Source: Pseudomonas leptonychotis
GTDB taxonomy: Bacteria; Pseudomonadota; Gammaproteobacteria; Pseudomonadales; Pseudomonadaceae
DNA length: 64,000 nucleotides
Direction of reading: 5' to 3'
NCBI RefSeq assembly: GCF_004920405.1
Contig: NZ_RFLV01000002.1
Coordinates: 734,013 to 798,012 of the forward strand
Below the pieces are notes generated by a model. It saw only the letters and a list, made by a program, of their open reading frames with translations, was not told the DNA's origin and made no database searches. The stretch's first letter is position 1. Every line of letters starts with the position of its first letter. This document shows, piece after piece, positions 16,766 to 52,373 of the stretch. The position numbers and the translations under genes were made by a program.

Positions 16766-17701
16766 CTATTCGCTCGAATGCAGCATCGCCAGACGCTCAC
16801 GCACTACATCCACCAGCTTGTCCGGCTGAAATTTGGAGAGGAAGTTGTCACACCCCACCTTCTTCACCATGGCTTCGTTGAAGCTGCCGGACAGCGAAGT
16901 ATGCAGCACCACGTACAGGTCTTTGAGACGCGGGTCATTGCGAATTTCGGTGGTCAAACGATAGCCGTCCATCTCCGGCATTTCCGCATCGGTAATCACC
17001 ATCAGCAGCTTCTCATGCACATCGGTGCCGGCATCGGCCCAGCTTTTCAGCAGGTTGAGTGCGCGCAGGCCATCGCTGGCGCAGTGACAACGGATATCCA
17101 GCTGCGCCATGGTGCCCTTGAGTTGGCTCATGGCCACATTAGAGTCGTCCACCAGCAACACCTCACGTCCCTTGGCGAACTCCAACATCGGGTCGGCCAG
17201 TTTTTCAGGCGAGACCTTAGTGCTCATCGGGGTAATTTCCGCCAGCACCTTTTCCACGTCGATCACTTCGACAATATGGTCTTCGACCTTGGTGATCGCG
17301 GTCAGGTAATGCTGACGCCCCGCGCCCCCTGGCGGCGGCAGGATGGATTCCCAATTGAGGTTGAGGATGCGTTCGACACCGCCGACCAGGAATGCCTGCA
17401 CCGAGCGGTTGTATTCGGTCACGATAATGGTGCTGCGCTCATCCGGCACAATCGGCCGCATGCCGATGGCTTGGGACAAGTCGATCACGGGCAAGGTCTG
17501 CCCGCGCAGATTGACCACGCCGCAGACAAATCGATGGCGCTGCGGCATCAGGGTCAATTTGGGCATCTGCAGGACTTCCTGCACTTTGAACACGTTGATC
17601 GCAAACAACTGCCGACCCGCCAGACGGAACATCAAAATTTCCAGGCGGTTCTCACCCACCAGCTGGGTGCGTTGGTTCACTGAGTCGAGAATGCCGGCCA
17701 T
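16766..17701 (-). CDS. cheV: Chemotaxis coupling protein CheV (CheW domain + receiver)
   Basis: CheV couples chemoreceptors to CheA and carries a phosphorylatable receiver. The CheW-like half (residues about 20-160) contains MFRLAGRQLFAINVFKVQE and GVVNLRGQTLPVIDL. The receiver half has VLLVDDSNVAMSQLK and phospho-acceptor aspartate in VITDAEMPEMDGY, with lysine in DNFLSKFQPDK. 311 residues, the normal length. Chosen start MAGILDSVNQRTQ; an extra ATG directly precedes it. A second CheV-type gene lies at 38804-39688. Confidence 0.93.
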   Translation of the reverse strand: MAGILDSVNQRTQLVGENRLEILMFRLAGRQLFAINVFKVQEVLQMPKLTLMPQRHRFVCGVVNLRGQTLPVIDLSQAIGMRPIVPDERSTIIVTEYNRSVQAFLVGGVERILNLNWESILPPPGGAGRQHYLTAITKVEDHIVEVIDVEKVLAEITPMSTKVSPEKLADPMLEFAKGREVLLVDDSNVAMSQLKGTMAQLDIRCHCASDGLRALNLLKSWADAGTDVHEKLLMVITDAEMPEMDGYRLTTEIRNDPRLKDLYVVLHTSLSGSFNEAMVKKVGCDNFLSKFQPDKLVDVVRERLAMLHSSE

Positions 17702-17827
17702 CATGCGCTCCTGTTCACTTATCGATCTAGCCTAGCTCAAATAGCCATGACCTGGTGTATCGGCCATGTGCCACGCATCTGAAGGCAGATGGCGCGGCGC
17801 CATCATGCGACAAGCGCACCGCCGAGG

Positions 17828-19680: not shown

Positions 19681-20063
19681 ATCCTGATGAGGTGGGTAAC
19701 AGTCAGCCCCTTATTTGCTGATGACATCGGCTAAGAGCGAGCTGGCGACAACCCACCTCTGCCCCATCTAGGGGCCTCTCGCTGCCAATTGCGCGTTATC
19801 CAAGGCCCTTAAACCGAGCCAACCACACACTGTCTTGGCATCCACGGCAGCTCATACCGGGCAGTGGGTGCTATGCACTGGCCCCGCCTAAGCGCCCAGC
19901 CCCTCGGTTACGCCACCCCACAGGGGCCAGCCCTGCATTAACCCCGCGCTAGCAAGGCACTAAGGTGCACCTTAGCTGTGCCTAGGGGAAACCCTGAGTT
20001 CGCAGTTGGCAATTGCGCCCTACCATTTACAGATGACCTTCACTGCCCGTGACCGGAGCCAAC
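19681..20063. other. Intergenic region upstream of the chemosensory operon
   Basis: About 380 bases with no supportable gene. It must carry the promoter of the chemosensory operon. It contains a 16-bp perfect palindrome at 19960-19975 (listed separately). No clear FliA-type (TAAAGTTT / GCCGATAA) promoter was seen. Confidence 0.5.
19960..19975. promoter_or_regulatory. 16-bp perfect palindrome, possible operator
   Basis: CTAAGGTG CACCTTAG is a perfect dyad about 90 bases upstream of the first gene of the chemosensory operon. It has no spacer, so it is more like a protein-binding site than a terminator. The binding protein is unknown; the LuxR-type regulator at the end of the operon is one candidate. 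Confidence 0.4.
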
Positions 20064-21143
20064 ATGGTTTTCGCCTACTGCGCCCTCTGGATAGCCATCA
20101 CCACCACCTTTGCCGGCCTTGCCTTGGGACAAACCTGGCTTGCCGTTTGCGGCACGGCTCTGGGCGCAATAACGGCTTTTTTTCTGCGTCCCCAATCAGC
20201 AGCGCCCATCCCGACTGAGCAACCCATCGAAGAGGACACACCTGCACCAGCAGTAGAACCGCTATTGCTTGAGGTTCTGCCGATGTGGAAGCAGAACATC
20301 GGTCAAGTCCGTGACGTGGTTCAGGACAACATCCGTCAGCTGTTCAATAGCTTTGACAGCCTCAGCCAACGTTTAGGCCAGACGCTGGCCAAATCCGAAC
20401 ACGTGATTGGCGGCGACGGCATGGGCACTAGCCTGCGTCAGGCTCAGGAGCGCCTGAATGAAGTGGTTCAGGCCTTCCACGAAGCCAGCGGCCACAAAAC
20501 CCAATTGCTCGCCACTATCGAACATCTCAATGACTATGCCAGTGAGCTGCAGGCCATGGCCAAGCGCGTGCAAGATATTGCCAGCCAAACCAATCTACTG
20601 GCCCTAAACGCTGCGATTGAGGCCGCCCGCGCAGGTGAACATGGCCGCGGCTTCTCGGTAGTCGCTGACGAAGTGCGCAAGCTCTCTACCCTGTCTGCCG
20701 AAACCGGCCAGCGCATGGGCGACAAGGTCGGGGAAATAAACCAAGCGATTCACTCGACCGTCAGCGCCGCCCAGCAAATGGCGGGCAACGAGCAGAGCAA
20801 CCTTGAGTACCTCGACCAGATTGCCGGCAAGGTCATGCAAAGCCTCAACCTGAACCTCACCGAGCTGTCCGATACCTCTGCATTGCTGCAACAAGACGCC
20901 CGGACCACACAAACCGACATTGAGCAAATCGTGGTCGGCCTGCAGTTTCAGGATCGCACCGACCAGATGCTTGACCATTTGCAAAATGACCTGCAGCGCC
21001 TGTGTCAGGCAGTCCAAAACCAGGACCCCTGCATTGCCGATCCGCAGCGCTGGCTCACTGAGCTGCGTCAACATTTCACCACCGACGAAGAACGTCATGG
21101 CCAACGCATCAAGGCTGTTGTCAGTGACGTCACCTTTTTCTAA
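20064..21143 (+). CDS. Short methyl-accepting chemotaxis protein without sensor domain
   Basis: 359 residues. Two closely spaced N-terminal membrane segments ([21 protein letters not shown] and [15 protein letters not shown]) with almost no periplasmic loop, a proline-rich linker, and then a cytoplasmic signalling domain. The receptor tip is [20 protein letters not shown], which contacts CheA and CheW. No HAMP domain is seen. C-terminal [19 protein letters not shown] is typical of this class of short transducers. ATG at 20064 has GGAG seven bases upstream. First gene of the chemosensory operon; 21 bases separate it from cheY. It may sense membrane state or a cytoplasmic signal. Confidence 0.88.
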
Positions 21144-21164: not shown

Positions 21165-21533
21165 ATGAGCGGCAAAACCATACTTATCGTCGATGACTCG
21201 CAGTCCATGCGCCAGCTGATAAAGATGACCCTTACCGGCGCCGGCCACCAAGTAATTGAGGCCGTAGATGGTCGCGATGCCTTAAGCAAACTCAACGGCC
21301 AGAAGATCAACTTGATCATCAGCGACGTGAACATGCCCAATTTGGATGGCATCGGTCTGGTTAAAGAGGTCAAGACCCGCAGCGAATACCGCTTCACCCC
21401 CATTGTCATGCTCACCACCGAAAGCGAGCAGGGCAAGAAAGCTGAAGGCCAAGCGGCCGGCGCTAAAGCCTGGATCGTCAAGCCATTCCAGCCGCGGCAG
21501 CTGCTTGCAGCCGTTGACAAGTTGGTCGGCTGA
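21165..21533 (+). CDS. cheY: Chemotaxis response regulator CheY
   Basis: 122-residue single receiver domain. Acidic pocket ILIVDDSQSMRQ, phospho-acceptor aspartate in LIISDVNMPNLDG, switch threonine in VMLTTESEQGKK, and lysine in WIVKPFQP. No output domain. It is immediately followed by the STAS gene, one base after its stop. Its partner may be the operon's CheA; whether it acts on flagella or on something else cannot be read here. Confidence 0.93.
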   Translation: MSGKTILIVDDSQSMRQLIKMTLTGAGHQVIEAVDGRDALSKLNGQKINLIISDVNMPNLDGIGLVKEVKTRSEYRFTPIVMLTTESEQGKKAEGQAAGAKAWIVKPFQPRQLLAAVDKLVG

Positions 21534-21534
21534 T

Positions 21535-21858
21535 ATGTTCCAGCTGAGCCACGACCCCAGCTGCCAGCCTGCTCAAATGCGCCTTGGTGGCAGCCTGACC
21601 ATCTACGAAGTCGCAGCGGCCCATGCCGAGCTGCTGCAACTGCTGGGTGAGCATCCTGACCACTCCTGGCAACTTGACCTAGCTGAGTTGGAAGAGCTGG
21701 ACACCGCAGGTGCTCAGCTGCTGCTTGCCGTGCTGCATCACCTAGAGCAGGCCGCGGCCACGCTGCAAGTGTGCAACGCGAGTGGTGCGGTCCTCGAGCT
21801 GCTGGAACTATTGCGCCTGCAGGCGCTGTATCCGGCGGTGATGCCGGCTAACCGCTGA
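21535..21858 (+). CDS. STAS domain protein (anti-sigma factor antagonist-like)
   Basis: 107-residue single STAS domain: QMRLGGSLTIYEVAAAHAEL, then QLDLAELEELDTAGAQLLL. In SpoIIAA-type proteins the regulatory phosphorylation site is the serine of a DSSG motif; here it reads D56-T57-A58-G59, so a threonine is available. It starts one base after the cheY stop and ends 11 bases before cheA. No anti-sigma kinase is encoded nearby, so its partner may be a component of the chemosensory array. STAS genes inside che operons are known but poorly understood. Confidence 0.88.
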   Translation: MFQLSHDPSCQPAQMRLGGSLTIYEVAAAHAELLQLLGEHPDHSWQLDLAELEELDTAGAQLLLAVLHHLEQAAATLQVCNASGAVLELLELLRLQALYPAVMPANR

Positions 21859-21869
21859 GGACCCTCGCA

Positions 21870-24104
21870 ATGCTCAATGGCGATCAATGGACACAGCTAC
21901 TGCAAAGCTTCATAGATGAAGCCCGAGACCTTACTCAGCAGGCTGAACAATACCTGCTGCTGCTCGACCAAACGCCGGACGATGAGGATGCGATCAACGC
22001 TCTGTTCCGGGTCATGCACACCATCAAGGGCTCGGCCGGCCTGTTCTCGCTAACGCCACTGGTGAATTTCACCCACCACCTAGAAAACCTGCTAATGGCC
22101 GTGCGTGATGGTGAAGCCAAGCTGTCCTCAGCGCTGATCTCACTGATGCTGCGCTGCCTTGATGAAATCGGTTCGATGGTTGAACTGATCGATGTCGACA
22201 GTGGCGCTCTGCAGGTTGATGTCGCCCATCAGAATGAACTGGTGAGCGCACTGGCCAAGCATGGGGTTCATGCCGCGCCCATAGAAAGCCAGGGCCTTCA
22301 GGCCTCAGAAAGTTTGCCACGTGGCCAGTTAGAAAAAGTTAGTCGCAGCAGTGGCGACGGTACGTGGCATATCTCCCTGCGCTTCCATGCTGAACTGCTG
22401 CGCAACGGTTTTGACCCAGCCGCGTTCCTGCGCTACCTGGCACGCCTAGGTGATATCAACCAGTTGCAGGTGGTCGACGAGGCGCTGCCTAGCCTGGTGG
22501 AAATGGACCCGGAACGCTGCTACCTGGGCTTAGAGATTGATCTGTACAGCGCCGCCAGCAAAACCGAAATCGAAGACGTATTTGAGTTTATTCACGACTT
22601 TTGCACCCTGCGTATTCTGCCGCCGGACAGCGTTGTAAACGACTACATCCAGCTGATCCATGAGCTCCCAGAAAACGAAGAGCGCATCGGCCAAATCCTG
22701 GTTGCCAGTGGCCTGCTAACGGAACTGGAACTGGCCACCGGCCTGGCGTTACAGCAGACGCAAACAACCGAGCCCAAGCCGCCCATCGGCACCTTGCTGA
22801 TAGATGAAGGCATAGTACCGCCGCAGGCGGTCAATGCTGCGCTGAACAAACAGCAGGCTGCGCGCGACAAGCGCAGCCATGAAAGCAGCCAGATTCGGGT
22901 AGCGGCACACAAGCTTGATGAACTGATCAACCTTGTCGGCGAACTGGTGATCAGCGCTGCCGGTGCTCAGTTGCGTGCTCGCTCCCACGGCGATGAGGGT
23001 TGCATTGAGTCGACTCAGACCGTCAACCAGCATGTCGAGCAAATTCGTGAGGCCGCCCTCAAGCTGCGCATGATCGAAATTGGTGACACTTTCAGTCGCT
23101 TCCACCGCGTGGTGCGCGATGTCAGCCAGCAGCTCGGCAAAGAGATCCGCCTGGAAATCCGTGGCGCAGAGACTGAACTGGACAAGTCGGTGATCGACAA
23201 GTTAGCCGATCCCCTCACCCACCTGGTGCGCAATGCCATCGACCATGGCATTGAATCCGGCGAAGAGCGCCAGTTGGCCGGTAAAAGCCGCGAAGGCCTG
23301 TTACGCCTCAATGCTTATCACGAGTCGGGGATGATCGTCATCGAAGTCGGCGATGACGGTGCAGGCCTGAATACCGCCAAAATCCGTGAGAAAGCCATAG
23401 CCCGTGGCCTTATCGATGCCCAGGCCAATCTCGACGAAGCTGATATTCACGCGCTGATTTTCGCCGCCGGCTTCTCCACCGCCGACAGCGTGTCCGACCT
23501 GTCCGGCCGCGGTGTCGGCATGGATGTGGTACGCAGCACCATCGATGCGCTGCGCGGCAATATCGAAATCGAGTCACGCCTAGGACATGGCAGTACCTTT
23601 CGTGTTCGCCTGCCGCTAACACTGGCCATCATCGACGGCTTTCTGGTCAGCCTGGGCGATGAGAACTTCGTCATTCCGCTTGATATGGTCACCGAGTGCA
23701 TTGAGCAGGACGATGCCCAGCTCGATGGAACCTACGGCTACTTAAACCTGCGCGGCAAGCCATTGCCGTGCCTGTCTCTGGCCGCGCATTTTTGCCTGCC
23801 GCCCAGCTCCAGCAAGCGCCGCAACATAGTGGTCGTTAACCATGGTCGCCAGCAGATTGGCTTAATCGTCGACCACCTCCACGGCGAACTGCAAACCGTT
23901 ATCAAGCCCCTCGCTCCCCTGTTCCAGCACCTACAAGGAATCGGTGGCTCCACCATTCTGGGCACCGGGCAAGTTGCCCTGATCCTGGATATCCCAAGCC
24001 TGTTCCGTGATCTGCAAAACCACGTCGAAGCGAGTGCAGCCGAATCCCGTATGGGCCAGCAACGCCAGGACACCAGCGGTAAACATGGAGAAATCTCAGT
24101 ATGA
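21870..24104 (+). CDS. cheA: Chemotaxis histidine kinase CheA with an MshEN-like insert
   Basis: 744 residues. P1 phosphotransfer domain with the phospho-histidine H50 in [14 protein letters not shown]. Residues about 160-255 form a conserved region ([18 protein letters not shown] ... YLGLEIDL). Residues 272-328 hold two tandem 24-residue motifs matching MshEN ([12 protein letters not shown]...Q and [12 protein letters not shown]...Q). P3 starts near 340 ([15 protein letters not shown]). ATPase boxes: [29 protein letters not shown]-terminal CheW-like domain with [16 protein letters not shown]. It overlaps the following MCP gene by four bases (ATGA). All kinase residues appear intact. Confidence 0.95.
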
Positions 24105-25747
24105 ACTTCTTTAGCAATATGAAAATTGGTGTGCGTCTTGGCATTGGTTTTGGCCTGCTTACGGTCCTGCTGGGCCTGATAGGCGTGCTTGGCATCCGCG
24201 AGACCTCAGCCATCAACAACTCGATTAACGAGGTGGTCGGTACCCGTTGGCCACGCGCCGAAATCGGCTTCAAAATGATCGGTGACTTGCACAGCATTGC
24301 CCGTCGCGCCTACACCACAGTAGCAATTACTGACCCAGTTAGTGCCGCCGAAGACACCAAAATCGCCTACGAGCACGCGGCAGACCTCGACGAAAAACTG
24401 CAGCAGATCCTTGCCATGCAGCTCAATGAGCAAGGCAAGGCGATCATGTCAGAATTCACCGTGAACCGAGATGCCATGCTCGTGGCGCTGAAAAAGACCA
24501 TTGATCTGAACAGTAGCGACCGCGAAGAAGCCGTGCAGTTTATGGTTTCTGACCTGCGTCCCTCGATTAATCGCGCCCAGCTCTCTTTGCAGAAATACAT
24601 CGACCTGCAGAGCGGCATGATGAATGCCGCTGGCAAAGAAACCGATGATATTTATCAGAACGCCTTCAACTCGATCATGGCCATCAGCCTGGCTGCTTTG
24701 GTGATGTCGGCTCTGATCGCCTTTTTTGTCACCCGCAGCATCACCCGTCCACTCAACCGCGCGGTCAGCGTGGCCGACAGCTTGGCCGCAGGTGACCTTG
24801 GCATCGAGGTACTGGTCGATCGTAAAGACGAAACCGGTAAGTTGCTCGCATCCATGAAGCATATGACCGAACGCCTACGCTCGATCATGGGTGATGTGCG
24901 TAGCGCCGCCGATTCGCTGTCCTCGGCGTCTGAAGAAGTCAGCGCTACTTCGCAATCGCTGAGCCAGGCGGCCAGCGAGCAAGCCGCCAGCGTCGAGGAA
25001 ACCAGCGCTTCGGTTGAGCAGATGTCCGCCTCGATTACCCAGAATACCGAGAGCGCTAAAGTCACCGACGGTATCGCCGGTAAGGCCGCAGGGGACGCGG
25101 TCGAAGGGGGGCGCGCCGTACAAGAAATGGTCTTGGCCATGAAGCAGATCGCTGACAAGATCGGCATCATCGACGACATTGCCTACCAAACCAACCTGCT
25201 GGCCCTGAACGCCGCCATCGAAGCCGCCCGCGCTGGCGATCACGGCAAAGGATTTGCCGTGGTGGCTGCAGAGGTGCGCAAACTGGCCGAACGCAGCCAA
25301 GTAGCCGCTCAAGAAATCGGCGGCGTAGCCGGCAACAGCGTGCACTTGGCCGAACAGGCCGGCAAGTTGCTCGATGCCATCGTGCCAAATATTCAGAAAA
25401 CCTCTGACCTGGTACAGGAAATCACGGCAGCCTCGCAAGAGCAGAGCACAGGCGCCACGCAGATCAACATTGCCATGGGTCAGATGAATCAGATCACCCA
25501 GCAGAACGCCTCTGCCTCTGAAGAGCTGGCCGCCACCTCTGAGGAAATGAACGCCCAGGCTTCGCAGCTGCTGGAGTTGATCAGCTACTTCCGCCTCGAT
25601 GAAAAAGCCAAGGCCAAGGCCAATCACGCGAGCAAAAGTTCGCACGAAACTACGCACAATATGCCACAGCGCCAAAACCGCATAATTCGTGGGGACTCGT
25701 CCGGCAGTGGCATGGTCGATGACAGCCAGTTCGTTAATTTCCACTGA
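24101..25747 (+). CDS. Methyl-accepting chemotaxis protein (4HB sensor, HAMP)
   Basis: 548 residues. TM1 near residues 9-30 ([20 protein letters not shown]), a periplasmic helical-bundle sensor of about 160 residues, TM2 near 190-210 ([20 protein letters not shown]), HAMP, and an MCP signalling domain with tip [19 protein letters not shown] and glutamine/glutamate-rich methylation helices ([28 protein letters not shown]). After a polar linker of about 40 residues it ends SQFVNFH, which fits the aromatic-x-x-aromatic CheR-tether pattern. Its start overlaps the cheA stop (ATGA). The sensed signal is unknown. Confidence 0.94.
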
Positions 25748-25758
25748 GGAGTTCGTCC

Positions 25759-26271
25759 ATGAACCTGCCTCAAGTTATAAATAGCGAGAGCACGCCTACC
25801 AACGTGCAGCATCTCTCCTTTCGGGTGCGTAAAGCTCGCTATGCGCTGCCGATCGAACTGGTCAGAGAGATTATTGAATACGGCCAGATCACCACAGTGC
25901 CGATGATGCCCGCCTGCATCCATGGGGTTATCAACCTGCGCGGCAATGTTGTGCCGGTGTTGGACCTGGCTGCGCGCCTGGGTGCAGAACTGACACAACC
26001 CAGCAAACGGACCTGCATCATCATCATTGAACTGGAACTCAATGAGCAGCAGCAACGCATCGGCCTGGTGGTCGATGCGGTGGATGCGGTGCTGGACATA
26101 GAAGCAGCGGACGTCGAAACCGCGCCGACCTTCGGCGCGGGCATTCGCACCGACTTTATTGCCGGCATGGCCCGCGACGAGCGCGGTTTCACCATCATGC
26201 TCGATGTACGACGGGTGCTCTCACTGGAAGACATCCTCGAACTCAACCGTGCTGTGGCGCGGGCAAACTGA
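25759..26271 (+). CDS. cheW: Chemotaxis coupling protein CheW
   Basis: 170-residue CheW domain: LSFRVRKARYALPIELVREI at the start, GVINLRGNVVPVLDLAARLG in the middle, and QQRIGLVVDAVDAVLDIEAAD later. It bridges the MCPs and CheA. A GAGGAG sequence overlapping the end of the MCP gene provides the ribosome-binding site. The next gene (cheR) starts one base after the stop. Confidence 0.94.
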   Translation: MNLPQVINSESTPTNVQHLSFRVRKARYALPIELVREIIEYGQITTVPMMPACIHGVINLRGNVVPVLDLAARLGAELTQPSKRTCIIIIELELNEQQQRIGLVVDAVDAVLDIEAADVETAPTFGAGIRTDFIAGMARDERGFTIMLDVRRVLSLEDILELNRAVARAN

Positions 26272-26272
26272 A

Positions 26273-27082
26273 GTGACCGTAGCCAGCCTACCTATTCTCG
26301 GCGACCGCGAGTTTCAGCAATTGCAGCAACTCATGGTCGAGGCCTCCGGCATTCACATGACCGAGCACAAGCGACCATTAATGGCCGGGCGCTTGTTGCG
26401 CCGCCTGCGCGTACTGGGCCTGTCCAGTTACAGCGAGTACATGGCGCTGCTCAACAACAAGCAGCACGTTGAAGAACGTCGACTGGTCATCGACCTACTC
26501 ACTACTAACGAGACATTCTTTTTCCGCGAACCGCAACATTTCGCCTTCTTATTGCGCTGGCTGGCCACACGTCAGGGCCAAGTGCGCCTATGGAGTGCAG
26601 CCTGCTCATCTGGAGAAGAAGCCTACAGCCTGGCCATGGTGATGGCCGAACATGCACGCACTAAAGACTGGTCGATTCTGGCCAGCGACCTCAGCCAGCG
26701 CATGCTGGAAAAGGCGCGCGAGGCGATTTATCCCATGGATGAAGCCAAGACATTTACCCCCGGCTGGCTTAAGCGCTATTGCCGCCGTGGTGTCGGTGAC
26801 TATGAAGGGCAATTTCGCGTTGAGCCTGAATTGCGCAACCGGGTAACAACCCGGGAGGTCAATCTGATGCGTCCATTACCGGCGGATATCGGCCAGTATG
26901 ATGTGATTTTCCTGCGCAACGTCCTCATCTATTTTTCGCCTGAGGATAAACGCAGCATTGTCGCCCGCATACTTGAGCAGCTGCGTCCGGAGGGCATGCT
27001 GTTCATCGGTCATGCCGAAAGTCTGCATGGCCTTGATTTACCCATTCGTACCTTGGCCCCTTCGGTGTATCAAACCCGATGA
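26273..27082 (+). CDS. cheR: Chemotaxis methyltransferase CheR
   Basis: Transfers methyl groups from S-adenosylmethionine to receptor glutamates. 269 residues from a GTG at 26273, one base after the cheW stop. N-terminal helical domain (FQQLQQLMVEASGIHMTEHK), then TTNETFFFREPQHF, the SAM-binding LWSAACSSGEEAYSLAM, and the catalytic-domain motif DVIFLRNVLIYFSPEDK. Ends four bases into cheD (ATGA). No ATG start fits without losing conserved N-terminal residues. Confidence 0.93.
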   Translation: MTVASLPILGDREFQQLQQLMVEASGIHMTEHKRPLMAGRLLRRLRVLGLSSYSEYMALLNNKQHVEERRLVIDLLTTNETFFFREPQHFAFLLRWLATRQGQVRLWSAACSSGEEAYSLAMVMAEHARTKDWSILASDLSQRMLEKAREAIYPMDEAKTFTPGWLKRYCRRGVGDYEGQFRVEPELRNRVTTREVNLMRPLPADIGQYDVIFLRNVLIYFSPEDKRSIVARILEQLRPEGMLFIGHAESLHGLDLPIRTLAPSVYQTR

Positions 27083-27558
27083 GTAATCAGCAATTTCTTA
27101 TGCCGGGCGATTACTTTTTTGGTCAATACGATGGCAATTTGCTGACCCTGCTGGGCTCCTGCGTGGCCGTCACACTCTGGCACCCGCGCTTGCAGTTGGC
27201 GGCGTTGACCCACTTTTTACTGCCACGCGGGCAACGCTTCGATCCTCAGGACACCCACTACGGCGAGGCTGTCTTTAACCAGTTACAAGCCGACATGGCA
27301 CGTTTGGGCACCCAACCCAGCGAGTACCTCAAGGGGTTATTCGGGGGGGGGACACAAATGGAATCCAAGCGTGGAAGCGACCTTAATGTTGCCGCCAAGA
27401 ATGTAAGTTTTTCCTGCGAGCAGTTTGAGTTGCTGGGCTGGCGCATTGACCAGCAAGCGCTGGGGGGGAGCTACAGGCGTCTGTCCCTTGATGCACGCAC
27501 TGGCAAAGTCACTTGTAAGGACCTGCAAGACTGTAACCAGCTGAGGATACGCGAATGA
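27079..27558 (+). CDS. cheD: Chemoreceptor glutamine deamidase CheD
   Basis: 159 residues. Catalytic cysteine in [13 protein letters not shown] and histidine in ALTHFLLP are present. The conserved glycine stretch LFGGGTQM is encoded by a run of nine G bases at 27343-27351. It deamidates receptor glutamines so they can be methylated. Overlaps both neighbours by four bases. A second seven-G run occurs at 27462-27468. Confidence 0.92.
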
Positions 27559-28622
27559 TCAAGGTGTTCATCGTTGACGACTCAGCCCTGGTGCGCCAGG
27601 TGCTTAGCGCCTGCCTGCAAAGCCATCCGGGCATCCAAGTAATTGGTCAGGCTGCTGATCCGCTCTTTGCCCTGGAAAAGATGCAGCGCGATTGGCCGGA
27701 TGTATTGGTATTGGATGTGGAAATGCCCCGCATGGACGGACTGACCTTCCTGCGCAAAATCATGAGCGAGCGGCCAACGCCCACGCTAATTTGCTCAACA
27801 CTCACTGAAGCGGGTGCGCCGATTACCCTGGAAGCCTTAGCGGCTGGCGCCGTGGGTGTTTTCACCAAAGCCCAAGTGGGGTTAAAGGACAGCTTACACG
27901 CGCTATCAGCAGAGCTTATCCGGCAGATCGAGATCGCCGCACGCAGTCACCCCCGTGCGTTACCAGACCCAACGGCAAAGCTGCAGCGCCCGGAACCAAG
28001 CCCGCCACCCGCGACGCCGCTATTTACCACCACCGAACGAATTGTCGCGCTGGGTACCTCCACCGGCGGTACCCAGGCCTTAGAGCAGGTTTTGCGCCAG
28101 CTCCCAACCGACTCACCGGGCATTGTCATTGTTCAGCACATGCCTGAAAAATTTACCGCAGCCTTTGCCCAACGCCTAAACAGCCTCTGCCAGATTGAAG
28201 TGCGCGAAGCACGTCATCTTGACCGGGTTCATCCTGGGCTGGCTTTAGTTGCTCCGGGCGGCCGGCATATGCAGCTCAAGCGAAACGGCGCGCAGTACTG
28301 TGTTGAAATCCTGGATGGCCCGCCGATCAACCGGCATAAGCCCTCAGTCGACGTACTGTTCCGCTCCGTGGCGCAACAGGCTGGAGCCAATGCCTTGGGC
28401 GTTATCATGACCGGTATGGGTGATGATGGTGCCCGTGGCTTGCTAACCATGCGTGAGGCAGGAGGCAAAACTGTGGCGCAAGACGAAGCCAGTTGCGTGG
28501 TCTTTGGCATGCCCAAAGAAGCGTTAAACCTTGGCGCGGCCCAACGCAGTGTATCGCTCGGTAACATAGCGGCACTGATCACCCAGTATGCCCGCAGCGA
28601 TTTGTCTACAAAAGCCCGTTAG
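27555..28622 (+). CDS. cheB: Chemotaxis protein-glutamate methylesterase CheB
   Basis: 355 residues: N-terminal receiver ([14 protein letters not shown], aspartate in [14 protein letters not shown]) and C-terminal methylesterase with serine in [16 protein letters not shown], histidine in [15 protein letters not shown] and aspartate in [13 protein letters not shown]. Removes methyl groups from receptors after phosphorylation by CheA. Start codon overlaps the cheD stop (ATGA). Last gene of the tightly coupled run; 260 bases separate it from the LuxR-type regulator. Confidence 0.95.
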
Positions 28623-28882
28623 GGCGCAGAACAATTCATCAATAAGCCGTTAGCCACTCCCAGTCGCTGACCCGAACCTATGCGCCCAAGTGAGAAAAAC
28701 TGCTGGGCTTAGAATGGATGCGTCTTTGCGGCGCTGACAAATAGCACCTAACCTAAAAATCAACCAATAACTCAAGAGGCATCCCTTCTGCGGCCTTGCT
28801 GTCTTCCGTCAATGAATGACGGTTGCGCCGCCAACCGAGGTGCATTAACGACCTTGGAAACCTTACGATAAAGGACATCGCT

Positions 28883-29521
28883 ATGGGCCACAGCTTACTG
28901 CTTGCCGATGATCATGCGCTGATACGAGCGGGGGTGCGCATGATGGTCGAGCATATCGACGGCTTCTCGGTAGTGGGGGAAGCCGAAGACGGCGGCCAAG
29001 CCATTGCTATGGCGGCTAAGCTGAACCCGGATATCGTACTGCTGGATATCACGATGAAGAACGTCAGCGGTATCGATGCCCTGCAGGTGTTCAAACGCGA
29101 CTCACCGCACATTAAGGTCTTGATGCTTTCTATGCACGGCGAGGCCGATGTGGTGCTTGATGCCCTGCAAAAAGGGGCTGACGGCTACCTGTTGAAAGAT
29201 ACCACCCTCGATGAACTGCCTCTGGCACTTACAGCCATTAGCCGGGGTGACCACTACCTCAGTTCGGCGGTGATGTGGCCGGTTATCCAGCAAGCAGTGA
29301 CCCGCAGCAAGCCAGACCATGAACTCACCCAACGCCAGCTGGAAATTCTGCGTTTAATCGCTCGATGTGAATCAACCCGTTCCATCGCCTTGGGGCTTGG
29401 CCTCAGCGTGAAAACAGTTGAAGCGCACCGAGCGCAAATCATGAAACGCCTGGACATTCATGACGTGGCTGGCTTGGTGCTGTATGCAGTGCGCCACGGA
29501 ATCGTTGATATAGACGACTGA
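28883..29521 (+). CDS. Response regulator, NarL/FixJ (LuxR-HTH) family
   Basis: 212 residues: receiver (LLLADDHALIRAGVRMMVEH, phospho-acceptor in DIVLLDITMKNVSGID) and a C-terminal LuxR-type helix-turn-helix (LTQRQLEILRLIARCESTRS, LSVKTVEAHRAQIMKRLDI). ATG at 28883 has AAGGA eight bases upstream; the longer frame has no start signal. No sensor kinase gene of the usual NarX type is adjacent, so CheA of the operon is a plausible phosphodonor. It is followed by a convergent gene. Confidence 0.92.
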   Translation: MGHSLLLADDHALIRAGVRMMVEHIDGFSVVGEAEDGGQAIAMAAKLNPDIVLLDITMKNVSGIDALQVFKRDSPHIKVLMLSMHGEADVVLDALQKGADGYLLKDTTLDELPLALTAISRGDHYLSSAVMWPVIQQAVTRSKPDHELTQRQLEILRLIARCESTRSIALGLGLSVKTVEAHRAQIMKRLDIHDVAGLVLYAVRHGIVDIDD

Positions 29522-38803: not shown

Positions 38804-39688
38804 CTACTGAAGGCTCTCGAACGCCCGCACTAACGACTTGCTCAGGTCCACGATGGAGAACTTGGTCAACACATCATTAGCCCCGACTGCCTTGGCTTTT
38901 TCGGTATTCATGGTGCTGTCTAATGAGGTGTGCAGCAGCACATAGAGCTGTCCAATATCGGGTTTCTTGCGCAGTGTGCGCACCAAGTCGTAGCCATCCA
39001 TTTCCGGCATTTCAATATCCGATACCAGCACCTCGATCGGTTGTCCCGCCTCGTACTGCGCTTGCAGCAATTCAAGCGCCTCGGCCGCACTGCGCACCAT
39101 CTGGCAGTCCAGTTGCAGTTTGCGCAGGGTAATCATGGTTTGGTGCAGCGCGACGTGTGAGTCATCCACGACCAACACCCGGCGGCCCTTGAGCAGCGCA
39201 CGCTCGCGCTCTGACAACATCTGCTCATCCAATTCTTCGATAACCATGGGGGCCAGCTCATGCAGCACTTTCTCGATATCGAGAATTTGCACGATCTTGC
39301 CGTCGATCTGCGTAACCCCGGTGATAAAGGCTTTGCTACCCGAGCCTGCCGGTGGCGGGCGAACATCGCGGGTATAGCACTGCACAATGCGCTCCACACT
39401 TTGCACATGCAGGCCCTGCCGCGAGCGACTGAGCTCGGTAACGATCAGGCAACCATCATTGTTACTAGGCACTCCTTGCTCGCCAATGGCCTTGGCCAAA
39501 TCGATTACCGTCAACGCCGATCCGCGCAGAGTGGCCACGCCACGCACATGGGGATGGCGGCTGGGTAGCTTGGTCAGCGTCGGGCAGGGAATGATTTCCT
39601 GGACTTTGAGCAGGTTGATACCCAGCAGGCGACCACTGTGCAAACGGAACAGCAGAAGCGACAGGGCGTCTCCAAGCACAAGGCTCAT
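38804..39688 (-). CDS. Second CheV-type coupling protein (CheW domain + receiver)
   Basis: 294 residues with the same layout as the CheV at 16766: CheW-like half (LLFRLHSGRLLGINLLKVQE, GVATLRGSALTVIDLAKAIG) and receiver half (VLVVDDSHVALHQTM, phospho-acceptor in LVSDIEMPEMDGYDL, lysine in NDVLTKFSIVD). The two proteins are related but clearly divergent. Monocistronic, ended by the terminator at 38759. In Pseudomonas several CheV paralogues commonly occur. Confidence 0.92.
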   Translation of the reverse strand: MSLVLGDALSLLLFRLHSGRLLGINLLKVQEIIPCPTLTKLPSRHPHVRGVATLRGSALTVIDLAKAIGEQGVPSNNDGCLIVTELSRSRQGLHVQSVERIVQCYTRDVRPPPAGSGSKAFITGVTQIDGKIVQILDIEKVLHELAPMVIEELDEQMLSERERALLKGRRVLVVDDSHVALHQTMITLRKLQLDCQMVRSAAEALELLQAQYEAGQPIEVLVSDIEMPEMDGYDLVRTLRKKPDIGQLYVLLHTSLDSTMNTEKAKAVGANDVLTKFSIVDLSKSLVRAFESLQ

Positions 39689-49415: not shown

Positions 49416-52373
49416 ATGCAGCAGAAACCACGGTCAAGGGAACGGCGTGTTCCGCTCCACATTCATATCAGCGTGCTATTTACCCTGCTGCTGCTGGGCT
49501 CAGGGGTGGTGCTGGGCTTCTTCAACTACCAGCAGACCAGCAACATCATCCTCACCAGCAGCGACCAGCTGTTCGGCCAGATGCGCAAAGAAGTGCAAAC
49601 AGACCTGCACAACACTTACCAACCGATACGTAACATGATCAACCTGCTCGCGCGCAACGAGCAGATCAATGGCCGTGACCGCCATGAACGCATGGTCATG
49701 CTGCCGATTTTCAGCCAGGCCCTGCATGACAACCCCAAGCTGGCCTCAATCTATGTCGGCTACGGGGATGGTGGCTTTTTTATGGTGCGGCCGCTGCGCA
49801 GTGAGAAACTGCGGCAGATCTTCTTTGCACCCGCCAATGCGGCCTATCAGGTGTGGAGCATTGACCGTATTAGCGAACAGCGGCTGGATTCCGAATACCT
49901 GTTCTTCGACGCTCAGCTGCAGCTCATTAGCCGCCGGCAGAACCTCAAGGAAACCTACGACCCGCGCAGCCGTCCCTGGTACAACAGCGCACTGCAAAGC
50001 CAGAAGCACTTCACCACCGCGCCTTATGCCTTCTTTTCCACCCAAGAAATCGGCACCACCATTGCGCGTAAAAGCAGCGATACCGCCGTTGTCGCAGCCG
50101 ACCTGACCCTTGACGACCTGTCCGCCACCCTGGCTGAACACCGCCTAACGCCCTCCACCGAAGTGGTGCTGTACAGCCCCGATGGCAGTGCCGTTGCCTA
50201 TCCAGACAGCTCGCGCTTGATTATTCCCGGGGAAAAACTGCAACTGGCGCAGGTCAAGGACCTCAGCCCGGTGTTGGCCGAATTTCTCAACCTCGGCCTG
50301 GATCAGGATCGCCAGGGCGCTGTGCAGTTGGGCAAGCAACGCTGGCAAATCGCCTATAGCCAATTCAGTGAAGGCGGACCGCAAGGGTTGCGCTTGGCTT
50401 TGCTGGCCCCGGAACGCGAGCTGCTGGCCGATGCATATCGCATCCGCTGGCAGGGTGCGGTATTGACGCTGGGCATCTTGCTGTTGTGCATCCCGATTGG
50501 CTGGCTACTGTCCAATATCCTGGTCAAGCCCTTGCGTCTGCTGGTGGCCGAAGCCGAAGCCATCCGCAGTTTCAACTTCGACTACCCGGCCAGTGGTCGC
50601 TCCTTCGTCAAGGAGGTCGATCAACTGGCAGTGTCCATGGGTCGCATGAAAGAGACCATTTCCAGTTTTCTCGATATTGCCGCCACATTGTCCGCAGAAA
50701 CCCGCTTCGATGCTCTACTACGCCGGGTATTGCGCGAAACCGTCGACCTCAGTGAAGCCAGCGGCGGCTTGCTCTACCTGCGCGACAGCAGCAGCGGCCG
50801 CCTGGAACCGTACGGCCTGTTTATCGACGAGCAGCAGCAAAACCTGCAAGAGCACCGCATCCCCAGCTTCGACCCCGACGACGCTGAGCTGCCCAGTTGG
50901 CTGGCGCAAACAGCAACGGGTGGCGCCAGCCTCACCGTGGCGCTGGGCTTCGAACATGCGCAGGGTTTCCAGAGCCTGCTGCACACCCTCGACAGCCCAC
51001 GCGCGCACCTGGTGTGTACCGGCCTGCATAACCGCCAGGGCCAGACCCTGGGGGTGCTTGTACTGCTGCACCGCGACACCGGCGATGAGGACGACTTAGC
51101 CATGCTGCGCCCGGAGCGGATTGCCTATGTCGAAGCCGTCTCCGCAGTCGCCGCCCTGTGTATCGAGAGCCAGCGCCTGCTTGATCAGCAGAAAAAATTG
51201 CTGGATGCCTTTATTCAGCTAATCGCCGGGGCTATCGACGCCAAGAGCCCCTACACCGGGGGTCATTGCCAACGCGTACCGGAAATCACCCTGATGCTCG
51301 CCCGCGCCGCAGCCACAAGCGACGAAGCTGCGTTCAGTGATTACCAGCCCAGCGACGAAGAATGGGAAGCCCTGCATATCGCCGCCTGGCTGCATGACTG
51401 CGGCAAGGTCACCGTACCCGAGTATGTGGTGGACAAAGCCACCAAACTGGAAACCATCAGCGACCGCATTCATGACGTACGTATGCGTTTCGAGGTACTC
51501 AAGCGTGATGCGTGGATCAGCTACTGGCAACACCTCAGTCAAGGCGGCGATGCCGCAACCCTGGGCCAGGTGCGCGATGAACTGCTCGTTACCCTAGATA
51601 ATGAGTTTGCCTTTATCGCCCGTTGCAACCTGGGTGGCGAAGCGATGGCCGAGGCCGACCTGGCGCGCTTGCGCAGCATCGCCGCACGCACGTGGACGCG
51701 CACGCTGGATGATCGCCTTGGGGTTTCTTGGGAAGAGAACCTGCGCCAGTCACGTACGCCCGCGCCGCCATTACCGGTGCAAGAGGCGCTACTGAGCGAC
51801 AAACCTGAGCACCTGATTGAGCGGCCGGACAGTGAGCTGATTGCCGAAGATAATCCGTGGGGCTTCAAGCTGGACGTACCCGCCTACAAACATAACCGCG
51901 GCGAGCTGTATAACCTGAGTATTGGCCGCGGCACCCTGACCAACGAAGAACGCTTCATCATCAATGGGCACATGGTGCAAACCATCCGCATGCTCAGCCA
52001 CCTGCCCTTCCCACCGCACCTGAGCAACGTGGCCGAGATCGCTGGCGGCCATCATGAAAAGATGGACGGCACCGGTTACCCGAAACGGCTGAAACGCGAG
52101 GACATGAGCCTGCCGGCACGGATAATGGCCATTGCCGATATTTTCGAAGCGCTGACTGCCGTGGATCGCCCCTACAAGAAAGGCAAGCTGTTGTCTGAGT
52201 CACTCAACATCATGGCGAGCATGTGCAAAAGCGCGCACATCGATCCGCAGCTGTTCAGTTTGTTCGTACGGGAAAAAATCTACCTGCGCTACGCCGAACG
52301 TTTTTTACGTCCTGAGCAGATTGATCTAGTCGATCACGATGCGCTGCTGGCCAAGGCTGGCCTGAGCGAATAG
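49416..52373 (+). CDS. Membrane HD-GYP cyclic-di-GMP phosphodiesterase with Cache, HAMP and GAF domains
   Basis: 985 residues. TM1 near 20-40 (HISVLFTLLLLGSGVVLGFF), a large periplasmic double-Cache sensor (YDPRSRPWYNSAL is diagnostic), TM2 near 350, HAMP, a GAF-like domain around 440-590 (ASGGLLYLRDSSSGRLEPYG), and a C-terminal HD-GYP domain. Catalytic residues: HCQRVPEI, H660-D661 in WLHDCGKVTVPEYVV, and HHEKMDGTGYP at 879-889. An insertion of about 160 residues separates the HD and GYP halves. Probably converts cyclic di-GMP to GMP or pGpG in response to an extracellular ligand. Confidence 0.93.
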   Translation: MQQKPRSRERRVPLHIHISVLFTLLLLGSGVVLGFFNYQQTSNIILTSSDQLFGQMRKEVQTDLHNTYQPIRNMINLLARNEQINGRDRHERMVMLPIFSQALHDNPKLASIYVGYGDGGFFMVRPLRSEKLRQIFFAPANAAYQVWSIDRISEQRLDSEYLFFDAQLQLISRRQNLKETYDPRSRPWYNSALQSQKHFTTAPYAFFSTQEIGTTIARKSSDTAVVAADLTLDDLSATLAEHRLTPSTEVVLYSPDGSAVAYPDSSRLIIPGEKLQLAQVKDLSPVLAEFLNLGLDQDRQGAVQLGKQRWQIAYSQFSEGGPQGLRLALLAPERELLADAYRIRWQGAVLTLGILLLCIPIGWLLSNILVKPLRLLVAEAEAIRSFNFDYPASGRSFVKEVDQLAVSMGRMKETISSFLDIAATLSAETRFDALLRRVLRETVDLSEASGGLLYLRDSSSGRLEPYGLFIDEQQQNLQEHRIPSFDPDDAELPSWLAQTATGGASLTVALGFEHAQGFQSLLHTLDSPRAHLVCTGLHNRQGQTLGVLVLLHRDTGDEDDLAMLRPERIAYVEAVSAVAALCIESQRLLDQQKKLLDAFIQLIAGAIDAKSPYTGGHCQRVPEITLMLARAAATSDEAAFSDYQPSDEEWEALHIAAWLHDCGKVTVPEYVVDKATKLETISDRIHDVRMRFEVLKRDAWISYWQHLSQGGDAATLGQVRDELLVTLDNEFAFIARCNLGGEAMAEADLARLRSIAARTWTRTLDDRLGVSWEENLRQSRTPAPPLPVQEALLSDKPEHLIERPDSELIAEDNPWGFKLDVPAYKHNRGELYNLSIGRGTLTNEERFIINGHMVQTIRMLSHLPFPPHLSNVAEIAGGHHEKMDGTGYPKRLKREDMSLPARIMAIADIFEALTAVDRPYKKGKLLSESLNIMASMCKSAHIDPQLFSLFVREKIYLRYAERFLRPEQIDLVDHDALLAKAGLSE

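Follow-up and report, generated by a model that had tools for sequence, protein, structure and literature searches.

An MshEN-type subdomain, probably able to bind c-di-GMP, beside the dimerisation domain of a CheA kinase in Pseudomonas leptonychotis

Can a chemotaxis kinase carry a receptor for cyclic di-GMP (c-di-GMP) within its own polypeptide? The question is raised by cheA in a 64,000-nucleotide stretch of the Pseudomonas leptonychotis genome (contig NZ_RFLV01000002.1, positions 734,013 to 798,012; hereafter the window). Residues 272-295 and 305-328 of its product form tandem motifs that fit the 24-residue pattern R-hyd-G-x2-L-x3-G-hyd-hyd-x4-hyd-x3-L-x2-Q, with motif II opening with proline. 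The initial annotation had placed this pair at 22683-22853; these coordinates were exact, and both motifs and the nine-residue spacer were reproduced. Judged by homology at the sequence level, the segment is a genuine N-terminal subdomain of MshEN (MshEN_N). With a probability of roughly 0.6, c-di-GMP binds MshEN_N of this CheA and tunes the kinase, making it responsive to c-di-GMP in addition to its receptors.

None of 20,000 shuffles of the CheA protein contained the strict form of the motif, and across all six frames of the window these two CheA copies were its only occurrences. The NCBIfam model NF053729 (c-di-GMP_motif, MshE-related) covered residues 272-328 end to end, with E 2.4e-7 (30.4 bits) for full-length CheA and E 4.8e-9 (35.9 bits) for the cut-out segment. 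Both scores are below the curated cut-off of 38 bits, which 2 of 10 full-length relatives pass, and the model matched each of 43 CheA segments. At E up to 10, Pfam-A returned no MshEN match for the window CheA or the segment cut from it, and at E 0.01 none among 33 related proteins; the likely cause is that the Pfam model extends over the two MshEN subdomains.

A profile of the CheA segments retrieved the N-domains of PilF, PilB and MshE from the PDB (E 3.5e-22 to 0.009), with 14 pilus-ATPase chains in a row. The AlphaFold model of the segment showed the four-helix bundle of the MshEN N-subdomain and aligned with c-di-GMP-bound PilF GSPII-B and with MshE at 1.4-1.8 Å; for MshE (PDB 5htl) the value was 1.8 Å over 59 residues. 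This is the MshEN-like fold for which the initial annotation had advised a structure prediction. Foldseek placed MshEN-type structures at ranks 1, 3, 7 and 22, all with E 1.8 or worse, and VIA-align of the same model set the c-di-GMP-bound structures apart from the remainder. The family profile, the PDB profile search, the structure model and the conservation pattern all speak strongly for the MshEN identity proposed earlier. Its proposed location between P1 and the kinase core was right as well and is, more exactly, between a P2-like region and P3:

21870-24104, + strand: cheA, 744 codons, P1 (Hpt) - P2-like - MshEN_N - P3 - P4 - P5 (open reading frame list, Pfam domains)
21894-22169, + strand: P1 Hpt domain, residues 9-100 (Pfam Hpt, E 1.2e-16)
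22362-22619, + strand: conserved P2-like region, residues 165-250 (b-a-b-b-a-a-b topology in the AlphaFold secondary structure)
22683-22754, + strand: MshEN motif I, residues 272-295 (predicted contacts R272, I273, G274, L288, L292, Q295)
22755-22781, + strand: nine-residue spacer between the motifs, residues 296-304
22782-22853, + strand: MshEN motif II, residues 305-328 (predicted contacts P305, I306, G307, V321, L325, Q328)
22887-23063, + strand: P3 dimerisation domain, residues 340-398 (Pfam H-kinase_dim)
23208-23621, + strand: P4 ATPase, residues 447-584 (Pfam HATPase_c)
23637-24014, + strand: P5 CheW-like domain, residues 590-715 (Pfam CheW)

The CheA domain set is complete, since Hpt, dimerisation, HATPase and CheW domains were all matched by Pfam; the NCBIfam CheA model also matched, with a score below its cut-off. 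The MshEN C-terminal subdomain is absent, and P3, opened by a hinge of low AlphaFold confidence (residues 339-343, per-residue pLDDT), begins about 12-18 residues after the motif pair. The region upstream of the segment, residues 165-250, is strongly conserved (WHISLRF...DPxxFxRYLxxLGDI), and its predicted topology is ferredoxin-like. It had no match to Pfam P2. As no sequence relative was found in the PDB at E up to 1, the P2 label is taken from topology alone, and the modelled region is probably a divergent P2 domain.

Does the segment retain what is needed for ligand binding? In MshE, the ligand is contacted by motif positions 1, 2, 3, 17, 21 and 24 (PMC5013675). In the 43 CheA segments, the mean entropy was 0.36 bits at the 12 contact positions vs 1.51 bits at the other 36 (permutation p 0.00015). 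These rows are CheAs that fit a loose pattern (hydrophobic position 2, Gly3, hydrophobic position 6, Gln24), which biases those positions, most strongly in motif I; the set contains neither near-identical rows nor any locus below L033. Gly3, Leu21 and Gln24 were invariant in both motifs. Position 17 was invariably Leu in motif I and Val in 42/43 segments in motif II. Because Gly3 and Gln24 belonged to the pattern used for row selection, positions 17 and 21 provide the unbiased evidence of conservation. Position 1 was Arg in 32/43 segments in motif I; in motif II it was Pro in 35/43 and Arg in none, and the spacer ranged from 5 to 13 residues. Among 26 further CheAs of the family, all possessed the pair, and motif II opened with Pro (18), Ala (5), Gln (2) or Arg (1). 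The survey of orthologues advised in the initial annotation thus found the motif residues conserved, the ligand-contact positions most of all.

Known systems indicate how such sites behave. The best-scoring PDB sequence relative of the CheA segment is GSPII-C of Thermus thermophilus PilF (PDB 6f8l; PMC11731258). As in CheA, its motif II starts with Pro-Leu-Gly (P335) and has Val at position 17, and its spacer of seven residues also exceeds five. Unlike the CheA segment, it lies within a pilus ATPase, is accompanied by a third motif and a C-subdomain, and its c-di-GMP binding has been measured. GSPII-B and GSPII-C of PilF both bind c-di-GMP: GSPII-B does so at 6 nM although Lys and Leu replace both of its arginines, and the weaker site, assigned to GSPII-C, has a dissociation constant (KD) of 324 nM in full-length PilF and of 460 nM in PilF1-482 (PMC11731258). 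One sentence in PMC12002112 gives the two KD values in the opposite order and agrees that GSPII-C binds. The N-domain of Vibrio cholerae MshE (PMC5013675) shares with CheA the tandem 24-residue motifs, the four-helix bundle and the same Gly and Gln contacts; unlike CheA, it has Arg opening both motifs, a five-residue spacer and a C-subdomain. The latter is dispensable there, since the isolated MshE N-subdomain binds c-di-GMP. Finally, NfrB of E. coli is, like CheA, an enzyme with a fused MshEN, and its MshEN binds c-di-GMP (PMC8669469); unlike in CheA, the enzyme is a glycosyltransferase and MshEN is C-terminal. The NfrB model matched 32/43 CheA segments. Given its conserved contacts and by analogy with these proteins, the CheA segment is rather likely to bind c-di-GMP. 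A search of the literature found no binding data for any MshEN-type CheA.

c-di-GMP may also alter the kinase activity of CheA, in either direction; the chances of such an effect are about even. That an MshEN domain can act on the enzyme to which it is fused has a precedent in NfrB (PMC8669469). In the favoured account, MshEN_N is a four-helix bundle formed by two tandem motifs and set between the P1/P2-like half and the P3 helices, and one c-di-GMP molecule would bridge both motifs. The ligand would stiffen, order or turn the bundle at the P2-P3 junction, beside the P3 hinge, and the changed bundle would in turn alter the access of P1 to P4 or the packing of CheA in the array. As a result, a second chemosensory kinase would answer cytoplasmic c-di-GMP as well as its receptors. 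The initial annotation had already proposed that the kinase may be under allosteric control by c-di-GMP or another nucleotide, and for c-di-GMP we make the same inference.

Other explanations have to be weighed. First, c-di-GMP might be bound and affect the location of CheA or the assembly of the array, by recruitment to or exclusion from pole or array, instead of catalysis. The solved MshEN and GSPII domains come from large pilus or secretion assemblies, and the CheA of P. aeruginosa recruits, directly or indirectly, a polar c-di-GMP phosphodiesterase (PMC10212136, PMC9061725), so that the chemotaxis and c-di-GMP systems meet at the pole. However, the domain is located near P3 with only a short hinge between them, where it is well placed to influence the kinase, and this explanation is considered rather doubtful.

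Second, the MshEN fold may have been kept and nucleotide binding lost, leaving a spacer or a protein-docking module between P2 and P3. Several points weigh against ligand binding and speak for such a loss. The contacts show one marked deviation, the arginine missing from the start of motif II, where Pro stands in 35/43 segments, and Val replaces Leu in 42/43. XpsE and PilF GSPII-A hold the fold without binding (PMC5013675, PMC12002112); a GSPII-A construct that has its native serine here, and alanine as residue 3 of the motif, did not bind (PMC12002112). The fold matches also include the N-domain of X. citri PilB, whose structure was solved with PilZ bound, and GSPII-C possesses a third motif that the CheA pair does not (PMC11731258). 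In addition, the original MshEN consensus of 2016 has Arg opening motif II and a five-residue spacer, in place of which CheA has Pro and nine residues. The proline and the long spacer had been raised as caveats in the initial annotation; both deviations are present, yet the concern is largely answered because PilF GSPII-C shows both and still binds c-di-GMP; the one departure from the consensus reported for it is the proline at the same place, P335 (PMC11731258). Moreover, the known non-binders XpsE and GSPII-A have altered glycine or glutamine contacts (PMC5013675, PMC12002112), whereas the CheAs retain these residues, invariant in 43/43 segments (the motif I positions being part of row selection). 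A loss of binding is therefore regarded as unlikely.

Third, the ligand might be another guanine dinucleotide, such as cyclic GMP-AMP (cGAMP), or another nucleotide. MshEN does bind cGAMP weakly, with a KD of 0.33 mM, but this affinity is several hundred times below that for c-di-GMP, c-di-AMP and the tested mononucleotides did not bind (PMC5013675), and the genome is rich in GGDEF genes, making this alternative very improbable. Lastly, a chance resemblance, for which nothing speaks beyond the sub-threshold NF053729 score and the Pfam miss, is refuted by the shuffles (0/20,000), the relatives (43/43 matching) and the PDB profile (E 3.5e-22).

How widespread is this type of CheA? When the family was searched with a profile of the segment, 57 of 298 genomes had a match at E 1e-12 or better. 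These genomes belong to 8 of 19 genera, and the 26 new loci from this search were all CheAs with the motif pair. In a draw from the phylum, 105 of 398 genomes matched at 1e-6; the 30 loci returned comprised 14 CheAs (L117-L128, L130, L133), 13 with the P-loop of pilus-type ATPases and 3 with neither. CheAs with the pair were found in Pseudomonas, Stutzerimonas, Tolumonas, Thiobacillus, Thiomonas, Methylomonas and relatives, Azoarcus, Dactylosporangium and one spirochaete metagenome-assembled genome. The distant L128 and L130, from another family of the phylum, have the pair with motif I also opening with Pro (PIG...). A plasmid search for this CheA gave 3 distant matches. In the genus, strong matches came from 20 genomes (E 2.4e-11 or better, frames of 725-838 residues) and were all CheA (among L003-L022); the tally of a search with the single segment, 93/149 genomes, was rejected as inflated. 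The weaker matches that were read comprise a pilus-type ATPase (L025), what appear to be frames over other genes (L024, L028, L030) and a stand-alone MshEN protein of 257 residues (L002, G000:C1:466864). The last has the complete motif pair and, after it, a probable membrane segment, and a related genome has a similar frame of 238 residues (L146).

The domain is absent from some close relatives. When CheAs were fetched by whole-protein similarity, the top 80 of 524 matches, a set that is thus not random, comprised 62 with the pair and 18 without; the latter were P. putida-type, Chromobacteriaceae-type and one degenerate case (L072). Altogether, 115 CheAs from 146 loci, with the window gene counted three times (as L003, L114 and L118) and some relatives more than once, comprised 94 with the strict pair, 2 with one strict motif (L011, L126) and 19 without; one of the 19 (L127) shows the pair on hand reading, with motif II one residue short. 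On a tree of P3-P5 only (75 rows), two changes explained the rows without the domain; the tree was a quick, unrooted build with several long branches and open forks, and the partial rows L011, L072 and L126 were scored as having the domain. Most simply, and as far as sequences tell, the MshEN segment would be an old domain lost twice in this CheA lineage. CheAs of the same lineage with the pair also occur in Dactylosporangium (Actinomycetota; L087, L093, L096), which suggests transfer between phyla.

The genes around cheA form a chemosensory cluster:

20049-21143, + strand: methyl-accepting chemotaxis protein (MCP) with signalling domain, first gene of the cluster (Pfam MCPsignal)
21165-21533, + strand: CheY-like single-domain response regulator (Pfam Response_reg)
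21535-21858, + strand: STAS-domain protein (Pfam STAS_2; start picked by eye, scanned as 21529-21858)
24101-25747, + strand: MCP with 4HB sensor and HAMP (Pfam)
25759-26271, + strand: CheW (Pfam)
26159-27082, + strand: CheR (Pfam; frame as listed, the actual start probably lying more downstream)
27079-27558, + strand: CheD (Pfam)
27555-28622, + strand: CheB (Pfam)
28823-29521, + strand: LuxR-type response regulator (Pfam), which often closes the cluster in Pseudomonas relatives (tblastn synteny)

A search of the genome for the CheA dimerisation domain gave four matches, three of them above cut-off, and the cluster is therefore probably an accessory chemosensory system. In P. fluorescens F113, swimming under denitrification depends on an accessory cluster (that of cheA3; PMC4498747) which likewise has two MCP genes, and this makes a link between the two clusters attractive. 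Pseudomonas clusters share the order MCP, CheY, STAS, CheA, MCP, CheW, CheR, CheB whether or not their CheA carries the domain, STAS being undetected in L094. In the P. putida-type CheAs (L053-L057, L094, L107), a Pro/Ala-rich linker replaces the MshEN segment and the gene order is much alike. The genome has 52 GGDEF matches. A motif search of the best 80 of 524 loci found a c-di-GMP enzyme adjoining the cluster in only 2/80, i.e., essentially no local linkage. Elsewhere in the window, two CheV-type proteins (CheW plus receiver) are encoded at 16766-17704 (- strand) and 38804-39688 (- strand). About 25 kb from cheA, 49416-52373 (+ strand) encodes an HD_5 (HD-GYP-like) protein that also matches dCache_1 weakly (39.1 bits vs a cut-off of 45) and is a candidate c-di-GMP phosphodiesterase.

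The pairing of MshEN and CheA is known in print and, as far as seen, apparently uncharacterised. Wang et al. 2016 found MshEN together with CheA and CheX; their MshEN-CheA fusions, the same domain pairing as here, are named in one sentence and a supplementary table. Among papers mentioning both MshEN and CheA, only this one puts the two in one protein, as far as the available text goes, and a search for MshEN with CheA or a histidine kinase, covering few subscription journals, found no experiment on such a CheA. On the chemotaxis side, the auxiliary domains that Berry et al. 2023 list for CheA architectures are P2, receiver and CheC/CheX, and their abstract describes CheA as lacking a sensor domain. 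Since the main text contains no Msh/MshEN, T2SSE, c-di-GMP or GSPII, MshEN-CheA seems to have been overlooked there. The present analysis adds a solid domain assignment, a signature that CheAs of this type conserve, the range of bacteria in which it occurs and its probable repeated losses.

Both c-di-GMP and chemotaxis bear on the choice between swimming and settling, and the known links between them use separate proteins, such as CheY-like regulators and a c-di-GMP-binding adaptor of a methyltransferase. Near-identical gene order makes the related clusters that miss only the MshEN domain in CheA a natural control, and the residue-level predictions are clear. It is tentatively suggested, at slightly less than even odds, that in a whole CheA lineage, with members in Pseudomonas, other proteobacteria, Dactylosporangium and a spirochaete, the kinase contains its own c-di-GMP receptor next to the dimerisation domain, through which the messenger directly sets kinase output. 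If so, no link between c-di-GMP and chemotaxis could be more direct than this receptor within the kinase, and CheA, usually described as without a sensor domain of its own, would have one.
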